NCBI GenBank assembly: GCA_017631325.1
Contig: JAGBTM010000049.1
Span: forward strand, 1 to 58,736
Direction: 5' to 3'
Length of the DNA stretch: 58,736 nt
Source of the DNA: Clostridia bacterium
GTDB lineage: Bacteria > Bacillota > Clostridia > Oscillospirales > CAG-272
The notes under the pieces are model-generated. The model was given only the letters and a program-made list of their open reading frames with translations. It made no database searches and was not told where the DNA came from. Of this stretch, positions 47,658 through 57,889 are shown piece by piece. Numbering within the stretch: the stretch's first letter is position 1; each line of letters opens with the position of its first letter. The translations under genes and the position numbers were made by a program.

Positions 47658-47773
47658 GTGGTCTGTTGCCCGTACTTGGAACCGAACCCGGCGCACACAC
47701 GCGTTAAAGTCCCCACTCCACAAAAGCCAAGCATCTTAAACTCACTCCGGGCCGCACTCAGCACCCGTGCGCT

Positions 47774-47860
47774 ATGGGTTCGTATTTGCCGCTCGAAGAT
47801 CGGCAAGCTCGCTTGCCAGACGCAGAGCGAGCAAATATTCGCGCAGCGAAATTCCCGTCC
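47774..47860 (+). repeat. Structured insert within a copy of the tRNA-Glu T-arm
   Basis: ATGGGTTCG (47774-47782) and ATTCCCGT (47851-47858) are the two halves of the tRNA-Glu T-arm. They are separated by a 68-nt insert (47783-47850). The insert folds as an outer stem TATTTGC/GCAAATA plus CGCTC/GAGCG, an inner hairpin GGCAAG-CTCG-CTTGCC and a 3' hairpin TTCGC-GCA-GCGAA. It is homologous to the inserts at 56510-56580 and 56681-56751. The 100 bp between the tRNA terminator and this element holds no gene. Confidence 0.85.
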
Positions 47861-47937
47861 GTCTCTTTAATACCTTGCGCGGCGAGGCAAATTACCGTCT
47901 GCTCTTTAAGTCCTTTTAAACAAGCTAATTCCAGTAC

Positions 47938-56336: not shown

Positions 56337-56410
56337 AGCGGAATTGTGTAGTGGTAGCACAGCAGACTCTGACTCTGTATGCCTGGGTTCGAATCCTAGT
56401 TCCGCTGCCA
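56337..56410 (+). tRNA. trnQ: tRNA-Gln (CUG)
   Basis: A 74-nt tRNA with an encoded CCA. The acceptor AGCGGAA pairs with TTCCGCT and the anticodon loop CTCTGAC gives CTG. The T-arm is CTGGG-TTCGAAT-CCTAG. Halves of this T-arm recur twice downstream, each split by a structured insert. Confidence 0.95.
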
Positions 56411-56411
56411 A

Positions 56412-56450
56412 AAACAAAAAGCACTCTACACGGAGTGCTTTTTGTTTTTG
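56412..56450 (+). terminator. Terminator of tRNA-Gln
   Basis: AACAAAAAGCACTC pairs with GAGTGCTTTTTGTT around TACACG. A second copy (without the leading A-run) lies at 56593-56622 within the 171-bp duplication. Confidence 0.9.
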
Positions 56451-56501
56451 TCTGCAAAACCGCGGCTTCGAGCACAGTGTTTTGCCCTCCTCGGCAAAAC
56501 G

Positions 56502-56592
56502 TGGGTTCGCATACCTCGCCCGGAGATCGACAAGCTCGCTTGTCAGGCGCAGGGCGTGGGTATCTTCGCTACAAGCGAATATTCTAGTTCCG
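56502..56592 (+). repeat. Structured insert in a copy of the tRNA-Gln T-arm, copy 1
   Basis: TGGGTTCG (56502-56509), a 71-nt insert (56510-56580), then ATTCTAGTTCCG. The insert folds like the tRNA-Glu-linked one: outer stem ATACC/GGTAT with CGCCC/GGGCG, inner hairpin GACAAG-CTCG-CTTGTC, 3' hairpin TTCGCT-ACA-AGCGAA. Confidence 0.85.
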
Positions 56593-56672
56593 CACTCTAC
56601 ACGGAGTGCTTTTTGTTTTTGTCTGCAAAACTGCGGCTTCAAGCACAGTGTTTTGCCCTCCCCGGCAAAACG

Positions 56673-56767
56673 TGGGTTCGCATACCTCGCCCGAAGATCG
56701 ACAAGCTCGCTTGTCAGGCGCAGGGCGTGGGTATCTTCGCTACAAGCGAATATTCTAGTTCCGCTGC
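56673..56767 (+). repeat. Structured insert in a copy of the tRNA-Gln T-arm, copy 2
   Basis: TGGGTTCG (56673-56680), a 71-nt insert (56681-56751), then ATTCTAGTTCCGCTGC. It differs from copy 1 at one position inside the insert (GAAGATC against GGAGATC). Confidence 0.85.
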
Positions 56768-56800
56768 AAAAAAATCCAACTCAAAAGAGTTGGATTTTTT
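56768..56800 (+). terminator. Terminator hairpin after the duplicated element
   Basis: AAAAATCCAACTC pairs with GAGTTGGATTTTT around AAAA, with a T-run. It can act on both strands. Confidence 0.88.
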
Positions 56801-56803
56801 CAT

Positions 56804-56983
56804 TTGTGCCACAAGGCACAACATCATTTGCGTGGCACACGCAACATCATTTGACCGTCAGGTCAACATCATTGCCGCCCCGTGTGGCACAAATTAACGA
56901 GGTTGAGGCGTTGCCTCAAATAATGTTGCAACAAGTTGCAAACGATGTGATGCTTCGCATCAACGATGTTGCGCTCCATGCAA
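56804..56983. repeat. Array of eight short hairpins with variable stems
   Basis: Hairpins start at 56804, 56828, 56851, 56873, 56903, 56926, 56948 and 56969. Stems are TTGTGCC/GGCACAA, TTGCGTG/CACGCAA, TTGACC/GGTCAA, a degenerate TGCC/GGCA, TTGAGGC/GCCTCAA, TTGCAAC/GTTGCAA, TGATGC/GCATCA and a degenerate TTGCG/TGCAA. Loops are 2-4 nt in the intact units. Spacers are CATCAT in the first three, an irregular one, ATAATG, then ACGATG twice. No coding signal was recognised. Confidence 0.9.
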
Positions 56984-57072: not shown

Positions 57073-57136
57073 ACTAGAGATTGGACTGAAGTATCCTTTA
57101 AAGCTATACGCTTTTGAAGTATCAGACCAATCTCTT
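57073..57136 (+). terminator. Long stem-loop followed by T-run
   Basis: GAGATTGG pairs with CCAATCTC, extended by CTGA/TCAG and CTTTAAAGC/GCTTTTGAAG, with a TATAC loop, then TTTTT. It could end a transcript reading through the hairpin array. After it lie two direct copies of CGACTTGTGTG (about 57160 and 57181). A short frame from 57036 (56 codons, AGGAG ahead) runs through it but looks unconvincing. Confidence 0.6.
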
Positions 57137-57286: not shown

Positions 57287-57889
57287 ATGAACACAAACGC
57301 TCTTTTCAATATTGGATACGGACTGTACGTAATCACTTCAAACGACGGCGTGCGGGATAACGGAATGATATGCAACACGGTGTGTCAGCTTACCAGCAAC
57401 CCGATACAGCTCTCGGTAACCTTGAATAAGGGCTCATACACGCACGATACCGTAAAGAATACGGGAAAAATGAACGTATGCTGCCTGTCCACCGAAGCTC
57501 CGTTTAAAGTTTTTGAGGCCTTTGGATTTAAAAGCGGACGTGACACAGACAAATTTGCGGACTGCACGCCGCCGCGCTCCGAAAACGGACTCGTATTCCT
57601 GCCAAAATATATAAACGCCTATCTCTCACTCAAGGTTGAAAATTATATCGACCTCGGCTCTCACGGAATGTTTATTTGTACCCTCAGCGATGCCGAGGTT
57701 TTAAATAACAACGAGAGCATGAGCTACTCGTACTACCAAGGGAACGTAAAACCAAAAAAGGACTCAAAAAAAGAGAAGCGCGGCTACGTTTGTACTCTCT
57801 GCGGATACGTGCATGAGGAAGAAACAATGCCCGACGATTTCGTCTGCCCCTGGTGTAATCACGGCAAGGAATTCTTCGAAAAACTCTAA
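57287..57889 (+). CDS. hrb: High-molecular-weight rubredoxin (flavin reductase domain plus rubredoxin)
   Basis: 200 residues in two parts. Residues 1-150 match the FMN-binding flavin reductase-like fold (NALFNIGYGLYVITSNDG, NPIQLSVTLNKGSYTHDT). Residues 163-200 are a rubredoxin domain: YVCTLCGYVHEE and DFVCPWCNHGKEFFEK give two CxxC pairs for one iron. In Moorella and relatives such proteins pass electrons to oxygen- or NO-detoxifying flavodiiron proteins. The start follows AAAGGGT. PnuC follows after 3 bp. Partner reductases are not in this window. Confidence 0.92.
   Translation: MNTNALFNIGYGLYVITSNDGVRDNGMICNTVCQLTSNPIQLSVTLNKGSYTHDTVKNTGKMNVCCLSTEAPFKVFEAFGFKSGRDTDKFADCTPPRSENGLVFLPKYINAYLSLKVENYIDLGSHGMFICTLSDAEVLNNNESMSYSYYQGNVKPKKDSKKEKRGYVCTLCGYVHEEETMPDDFVCPWCNHGKEFFEKL

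Follow-up and report, generated by a model that had tools for sequence, protein, structure and literature searches.

The closest described system to the elements reported here is the intervening sequence (IVS) of 23S rRNA with its S23/IVP gene, which has the same protein family and inverted repeats at its ends. An IVS lies inside 23S rRNA, from which RNase III excises it. Its repeats flank the gene, whereas in the present elements the two inverted halves both precede it; unlike IVSs, the arrays are often found behind tRNA genes and carry hairpins between repeated heptamers. Passages of PMC4990558 call the IVS a selfish element, list its mobility as a hypothesis, and describe the function of the IVP protein and the mobility of the element as unclear; for the Xanthomonas member, the same source presents a toroidal homopentamer built from four-helix bundles. 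According to a part of PMC10053308, Avd, an accessory protein of diversity-generating retroelements, is related to the IVP family PF05635, and a section of PMC3733652 describes REP/BIME elements as short palindromes in intergenic space. The likeness of our array to REP/BIME elements and RAYT lies in its short intergenic palindromes. In REP/RAYT systems, the palindrome and a short tag are both constant; unlike them, the array described here lacks a conserved palindrome sequence, its stems vary and its heptamer is constant.

In the window (the whole stretch of 58,736 nt that was analysed), an array of eight hairpins occupies positions 56804-56983. This array is probably a leftover copy of a small, apparently mobile element family of uncultured Clostridia that is often found behind tRNA genes. 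Inspection of the sequence confirmed the hairpin array with the coordinates, conserved ends and spacers given in a preliminary description of this DNA. By eye, six stems are clean (TTGTGCC, TTGCGTG, TTGACC, TTGAGGC, TTGCAAC and GATGC) and two are imperfect (56874-56888 and 56969-56983).

The array consists of two halves. In the left half, three copies of the heptamer ACATCAT (56821-56827, 56844-56850 and 56866-56872; recorded on the reverse strand, ATGATGT on the other strand) alternate with hairpins, all of which, like the other features given below, are recorded on the forward strand: hairpin 1 (56804-56821, TTGTGCC-acaa-GGCACAA, seen in the sequence and in the RNA fold), hairpin 2 (56828-56844, TTGCGTG-gca-CACGCAA), hairpin 3 (56851-56866, TTGACC-gtca-GGTCAA, also present in the fold) and the imperfect hairpin 4 (56874-56888, GCC-gccccgtgt-GGC). 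The arms of a long-range stem, P0, detected as inverted repeat I3, lie at 56802-56812 (ATTTGTGCCAC, shared with hairpin 1) and at 56884-56894 (GTGGCACAAAT, overlapped by hairpin 4). The right half carries four copies of the heptamer on the other strand, each one or two letters off the motif. It begins with the decayed heptamer ACGAGGT (56897-56903, placed by sequence and by alignment with relatives), followed by hairpin 5 (56903-56919, TTGAGGC-gtt-GCCTCAA), the decayed heptamer ATAATGT (56920-56926), hairpin 6 (56926-56941, TTGCAAC-aa-GTTGCAA), ACGATGT (56942-56948), hairpin 7 (56949-56961, GATGC-ttc-GCATC), a second ACGATGT (56963-56969) and the decayed hairpin 8 (56969-56983, TTGCGCTCCATGCAA; many relatives have TTGCGCTTCGCGCAA). 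In the window copy, the left-half linkers are thus intact, and the right-half linkers and the last hairpin are decayed. The preliminary description had named two spacers, CATCAT and ACGATG; both are present, but they represent a single 7-nt motif on opposite strands: the left half has ACATCAT, and the right half has the inverted form (ATGATGT) in a decayed state. In an exact search, the spacer AACATCATTTG occurred twice in the own genome, both times inside the window array and nowhere outside it. The RNA fold of the 221-nt array region was better than that of 200 out of 200 shuffles (z -4.9); for the reverse strand, z was -3.7 and one of 200 shuffles was equally good. At the gathering threshold, Rfam gave no family match for the window array, and no rRNA was matched in the window.

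The host gene ahead of the element is tRNA-Gln(ctg) (56337-56410, forward strand, ARAGORN). The array had been placed 460 bp after this tRNA, which is about right for the distance from the tRNA start (467 nt) but not from the tRNA end at 56410 (394 nt). Directly before the element, a partial copy of the tRNA-Gln 3' end (attctagttccgctgca, 56752-56768) was found as direct repeat D2, with 91% identity over 22 nt. It is followed by an intrinsic terminator at 56769-56800 (inverted repeat I4), which has a perfect 14-bp stem (AAAAAATCCAACTC/GAGTTGGATTTTTT) and a T-run. Downstream of the array, a stem-loop with arms at 57076-57089 and 57122-57135, 93% complementary and followed by a T-run, is probably a terminator; neither this stem-loop nor the stem at 56769-56800 was among the results of the consensus terminator scan. 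The array does stand between a terminator and a second stem-loop, as had been proposed.

To find related arrays, we searched for the pattern AACATCATT-N10..24-AACATCATT, which was present in 16 of 59 genomes, the own one counted; its reversed control was present in 0 of 59. A wider scan of genome contigs gave at least 116 stretches, many of them by chance; among the 116 listed, 25 had at least five window-type linkers within 220 nt, and 24 of these 25 came from Clostridia. At least 120 stretches were obtained from viral contigs. Two layouts could be distinguished: class A, the window type, starts with ACATCAT, and class B starts with ATGATGT. In many copies of both classes a terminator stands right after the tRNA CCA (by eye), and the terminator at 56769-56800 probably belongs to the element, since class A relatives have it in the same place and form. 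The preliminary description held that hairpin-directed evolution would lose its support if relatives had no other arrays or no new stem variants. Other arrays with other stems were found in relatives, so the stems are not fixed in this way.

Covariation was scored in an alignment (A1) of 20 class A arrays including that of the window. The score was 0.274 versus 0.067 after shuffling, with none of 500 shuffles as high, and it was far lower for all structures slid by 1-3 columns. Indeed, both arms of the stems change together, as the preliminary description had suggested. Hairpins 2 and 3, whose stems covary, showed two-sided change in eight pairs and 39 cells and no one-sided change; four to five sequences with a different third hairpin were off the common register and were scored as unpaired there. 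In hairpin 1, one pair is unpaired in 9 of the 20 arrays. P0 is 99.4% paired in the 20 arrays, a figure that is partly built in because class A was picked by a pattern that included both P0 arms.

Among 87 parsed arrays, a perfect linker-flush stem of at least four pairs was present in 195 of 333 inter-linker segments and absent in 138; the corresponding values were 5.5% for shuffled segments and 9.7% when halves were re-paired between segments. In the comparison of stems, both arms had changed with pairing kept in 1091 cells, a single arm had changed in 37, both had changed but were not both paired in another 37, and 1066 cells were unchanged; the ratio of 1091 to 37 is inflated, since the stems were chosen as paired stretches, and the segment and covariation tests are fairer. 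There were 230 hairpins without mismatch and 62 with mismatches (10 G-T, 11 A-C and 69 other) among a total of 292, and 70 further segments had no stem of four pairs. The hairpins abut the linkers directly: the gap between neighbouring stems peaks at 5-7 nt, and its mode is 7 for linkers written G..T, A..C and T..T, the ends of which do not pair. The view of the linker as the constant part and the stem as the variable part was borne out across relatives. By eye, the first hairpin of the second half often has tandem G-A mismatches beside a GAA-like loop (GAGC-gaa-GCGA), examples being L270, the L297 region and L408, all of them arrays upstream of IVP genes.

The open frames behind class B and some class A arrays were identified as PF05635 (23S rRNA-intervening sequence protein, IVP) and TIGR02436 (four helix bundle protein). 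The two proteins scanned had E values of 6e-28 and 2e-26 for Pfam and of 8e-31 and 2e-27 for TIGR02436, and the sole solved structure matched by sequence was PDB 2rld (E 2e-30), which has five chains. In the relatives set, PF05635 was present in 47 of 59 genomes (own genome included; up to seven per genome); the counts were 64 of 196 for the class, 29 of 149 for the phylum and 0 of 14 for control genomes. We studied 90 loci out of 128 IVP matches in the relatives set and 29 new loci in the class-wide set, the latter being the best scoring of 130 matches. No IVP gene adjoins the window array; in the own genome, IVP genes are found at three loci (L299-L301), all on other contigs and with a linker unlike that of the window. 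Among arrays with enough flank, 15 of 19 in class A and 9 of 18 in class B had no IVP frame within 800 nt, so that the array may exist independently of the IVP gene. Bounding inverted repeats of the IVS type are present in the window and its relatives in the form of the inverted heptamer halves and P0. The window copy is located behind tRNA-Gln and not in 23S rRNA, and a PF05635 gene accompanies some relatives with the same kind of array but not the window copy. Since no PF05635 gene goes with it, we regard it as a derivative and not as a full IVP/S23 member; the best description is that of a remnant or non-autonomous copy of an IVP element.

Repeated heptamers are a frequent feature of the sequence upstream of IVP genes. 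A 7-mer occurring at least five times, counted over both strands together, was found upstream of 42 of 73 IVP genes (12 of 85 had too little sequence to be scored), compared with 0 of 73 after shuffling and 6 of 62 downstream. Hairpins usually stand between these heptamers; at least L317, L331 and L332 among the 42 have repeats without the hairpin layout. In other orders of the class, heptamer repeats were present at 5 of 26 IVP loci (shuffled, 0 of 26; 3 of 29 loci were too short). A further linker, ATTTAGC, was seen there at L448, L451 and L456, and one of the five loci, L452, is hairpin-less. By eye, no hairpin arrays were found outside the genus in the 25 phylum loci inspected. The 7-mers include ATGATGT, GTGATAT, AGTTATA, GTTATGA, ATGAAAT, TTGAAAT, ATGAATT, GTGAAGT, AATGAAG, GCGATAT and ATGATAT, with a consensus by eye of roughly [AG]TGA[AT]NT.

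In a full unit, a terminator is followed by about four pairs of heptamer and hairpin, a hinge that is complementary to the array start, about four inverted pairs, often a promoter-like site, and the IVP gene; in slightly more than a third of cases, a tRNA immediately precedes the whole. Four units, hinge and four inverted units is the commonest order, with three to five units per side. The halves mostly have three or four heptamers and not five, and so do not exactly fit a pentamer with one heptamer for each subunit. A promoter-like pair starting at the last linker was present in 10 of 27 arrays with enough room (shuffled, 0.4). Stems are replaced by others but keep their self-complementarity. 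Linker type follows the protein tree: it required 9 changes versus a shuffled mean of 26.8, and 0 of 200 shuffles were as low; this count excludes three of 44 rows, whose linkers were unclear, and includes the hairpin-less L317. Linker types such as TGATAT and TGAAGT occur in more than one protein clade, and the linker type of the window taken alone is not clearly clustered: its 2 changes in 3 rows were matched or undercut by 23 of 500 shuffles. The agreement between linker and protein can be explained by inheritance as one unit, without binding.

An inverted repeat that beat every shuffle was detected around the IVP gene at 31 of 112 loci. Its best internal period was 7 or 14 at 24 of these 31 loci and 11 at two; the rest were mostly hairpin arrays. 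Hairpin-less IVP copies have bare 7-nt tandem repeats in inverted orientation, and some occupy the same tRNA positions as hairpin copies. Others lie inside LSU rRNA (L388, L392 and L399), a location found for four of the six loci picked by eye for Rfam. Because the hairpin-less relatives have inverted repeats with a period of 7, we read the hairpins as additions; they look like insertions between heptamers. At L394 and L396, which are hairpin-less as well, an IVP gene with heptamer repeats is situated inside an RNase P RNA gene (1229-2003), where the RNaseP_bact_a match spans 775 nt for a model of 367 positions.

The IVP genes favour a position behind a same-strand tRNA. Such a tRNA was present at most 450 nt upstream at 27 of 76 IVP loci for which 450 nt of upstream sequence were available, an opposite-strand tRNA at none, and within 450 nt downstream there were two (77 loci). 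In the 3' flank of tRNA-Gln(ctg), eight of 24 congeners have an element by eye, with five types represented: class B at L408 and L418, GTGATAT at L422, ATGATAT at L412 and L423, a hairpin-less TTCACT type at L414 and L431, and class A in the window (L425). In the other 16, no element was seen within the inspected stretch, which was short in some; the 24 loci are those in which the tRNA pattern was found, out of 60 genomes. When copies at different sites were compared in pairs, the similarity started at the array start or else within or immediately after the tRNA, and its end lay from 69 nt upstream to 82 nt downstream of the IVP stop, the exceptions being pairs with a homologous flanking gene or tRNA. 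We infer that the IVP unit moves or has moved. A strict empty site was not found; the neighbouring gene at 57287 occurs without an adjoining tRNA-Gln at 19 other loci.

Elements also occur at a second place, behind the coding end of a gene whose product reads ..FPxTGHVESVVCL, which we take to be an rRNA uridine methylase (L293, L296, L313, L316, L318, L322, L338, L340, L342 and L349). Arrays of three linker types start at the same point of the 3' end of this gene. In the first hairpin at this site, host codons pair with element sequence; our script found such a stem at 4 of 10 loci (perfect over 18 bp at L322 and over 12 bp at L296 and L349, and 17 with one mismatch at L340) and none at the other six, where it is imperfect by eye.

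The hairpins could belong to a structured RNA, transcribed by read-through from the tRNA or from its own promoter and acting, for example, as a sponge, a scaffold or a regulator of the IVP mRNA. The strong fold and the covariation speak for such an RNA, as does P0 within the selection bias given above. In a structured RNA, compensatory change would pass through wobble intermediates; in the array stems, G-T was rare and no commoner than A-C (10 versus 11), compared with 44 versus 18, and 25 other mismatches, in 146 terminator-like hairpins of the same loci, a comparison of small numbers that involves 21 array mismatches, slightly different code for the two kinds of stem, and a control comprising any hairpin with A- and T-runs after CCA, not proven terminators. 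The loops are predominantly TTC in one orientation of the linker and GAA in the opposite one, a pattern that would be favoured by no single RNA strand. The lack of an Rfam match at the gathering threshold, the terminator before the array and the promoter-like site after it in 10 of 27 cases also argue against an RNA, which we consider unlikely. Two observations weaken the multi-hairpin RNA of the preliminary description: wobble pairs are rare, and the array is preceded by a terminator and, where the gene is present, followed by a promoter-like site. Together, wobble rarity, loop orientation and the promoter-like pair at the last linker argue with moderate force that the array works as DNA. About as improbable, in our estimate, is a passive by-product, in which heptamer repeats attract both hairpins and quasi-palindrome correction (template switching) when the DNA is replicated, and the hairpins are tolerated behind tRNA terminators without being of use. 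In its favour, 230 of 292 hairpins have no mismatch, and at the methylase-like site the second arm is the inverse of host coding sequence at 4 of 10 loci, perfectly over up to 18 bp; hairpin-less IVP elements at the same sites also imply that hairpins are not essential. However, the layout of about four plus four units, the linker length of 7 and the flush hairpins recur across many clades, and homologous stems differ two-sidedly far more than one-sidedly, which suggests upkeep.

We give very little weight to a palindrome family of the REP or IS200/IS605 kind that depends on a Y1 (HUH) transposase for its movement. Intergenic palindromes in either orientation would fit such a family, and Y1 matches occur in 13 of 40 genomes; they are absent from the other 27, among them 9 of the 11 genomes tested that carry class A or B arrays, and from the own genome (93% complete). 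Moreover, a variable palindrome with a constant tag is the reverse of REP, and the co-occurring gene is IVP. Reverse transcriptase (PF00078) had no match in the own genome, in contrast to Avd retroelements, and none in 32 of 40 genomes or in 10 of 11 tested class A/B carriers. Since Y1 and reverse transcriptase are lacking in most genomes, neither is the general driver, provided that the assemblies, some of them incomplete, are trusted. A two-part toxin-antitoxin or defence unit, with a repeat RNA upstream of a small gene as in type III toxin-antitoxin systems, has the same gross order of repeats and small gene. It is likewise very improbable, as the two scanned proteins match IVP (Pfam) and four-helix-bundle (NCBIfam) families and no toxin family, the array has inverted halves with free stems and not identical tandem RNA units, and the gene is missing at 24 of the 37 class A and B arrays whose flanks were long enough.

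The reading that we favour, with some reserve on account of the imperfect stems and the weak clustering of the window's linker type, is that the window array is a non-autonomous derivative of an IVP element in which the heptamers are putative protein-binding sites and the hairpins sequence-free spacers. The IVP ring would recognize the heptamers, probably as DNA, in view of the scarcity of wobble pairs and of the array's position between a terminator and a promoter. Each hairpin would fix the distance of adjacent heptamers, its letters being free and its fold not, and through the last heptamer, next to the -35 box, IVP may control its own expression. TRAP-type rings bind spaced RNA repeats; the proposed ring with repeated short motifs resembles TRAP, but IVP has another fold and is not a member, and here hairpins separate the motifs. 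Of the three mechanisms suggested in the preliminary description, a binding protein fits best, provided that it binds the constant part rather than the hairpin itself. For new stems, snap-back or template-switch synthesis would suffice, and template switching, also suggested there, is a possible source. The earlier reading is partly supported; it had missed the inverted linker order, the link to IVP, the tRNA 3'-end site and the bare-heptamer relatives. On a wider scale, we propose tentatively, and with somewhat less than even expectation, a large group of selfish elements of Clostridia whose IVP ring reads clade-specific heptamers parted by hairpins. The hairpins would be generated as hairpins by whole-stem exchange (snap-back or template switch), and the elements would be aimed at the 3' ends of tRNA, tmRNA and the rRNA-methylase-like gene. 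The classical IVS of 23S rRNA would be a hairpin-less branch of this group with a shared 7-nt period.

The heptamer rule offers a concrete candidate for what the IVP protein reads, and pairing clade protein with clade heptamer provides a ready specificity test. The arrays also represent a natural system in which the form of a hairpin, and not its sequence, is inherited. Titles and abstract openings in the open-access literature, a scope that leaves subscription journals and preprints mostly outside, contained no report of heptamer-hairpin arrays with IVP genes. A CRISPR array has a constant repeat of about 20-40 nt and unique spacers that are not self-complementary. We rejected CRISPR, as did the preliminary description, on account of its different anatomy: the constant part here is about 7 nt long and the variable part is self-complementary. 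Such arrays could nevertheless pass for CRISPR-like or structured-RNA loci. A figure legend in a CRISPR survey (PMC10910872) lists 23S rRNA IVP among its protein domains, whether or not on account of such arrays.

Between tRNA-Gln and the element, positions 56421-56762 contain two tandem 171-nt units that are 98% identical, each closed by a partial copy of the tRNA-Gln 3' end. Similar units with GGGTTCGCAT...GAATACCCTAGTTCC were also seen by eye behind tRNA-Gln in several congeners, at L409, L413, L414, L416, L417, L426 and L427. This looks like a second repeat family, which enters the T loop of the tRNA and copies the tRNA 3' end. By eye, the sequence gggttcgtatttgcc...gcaaatattcgcgcagcgaaat behind tRNA-Glu at 47690-47900 of the window resembles this T-loop repeat family.
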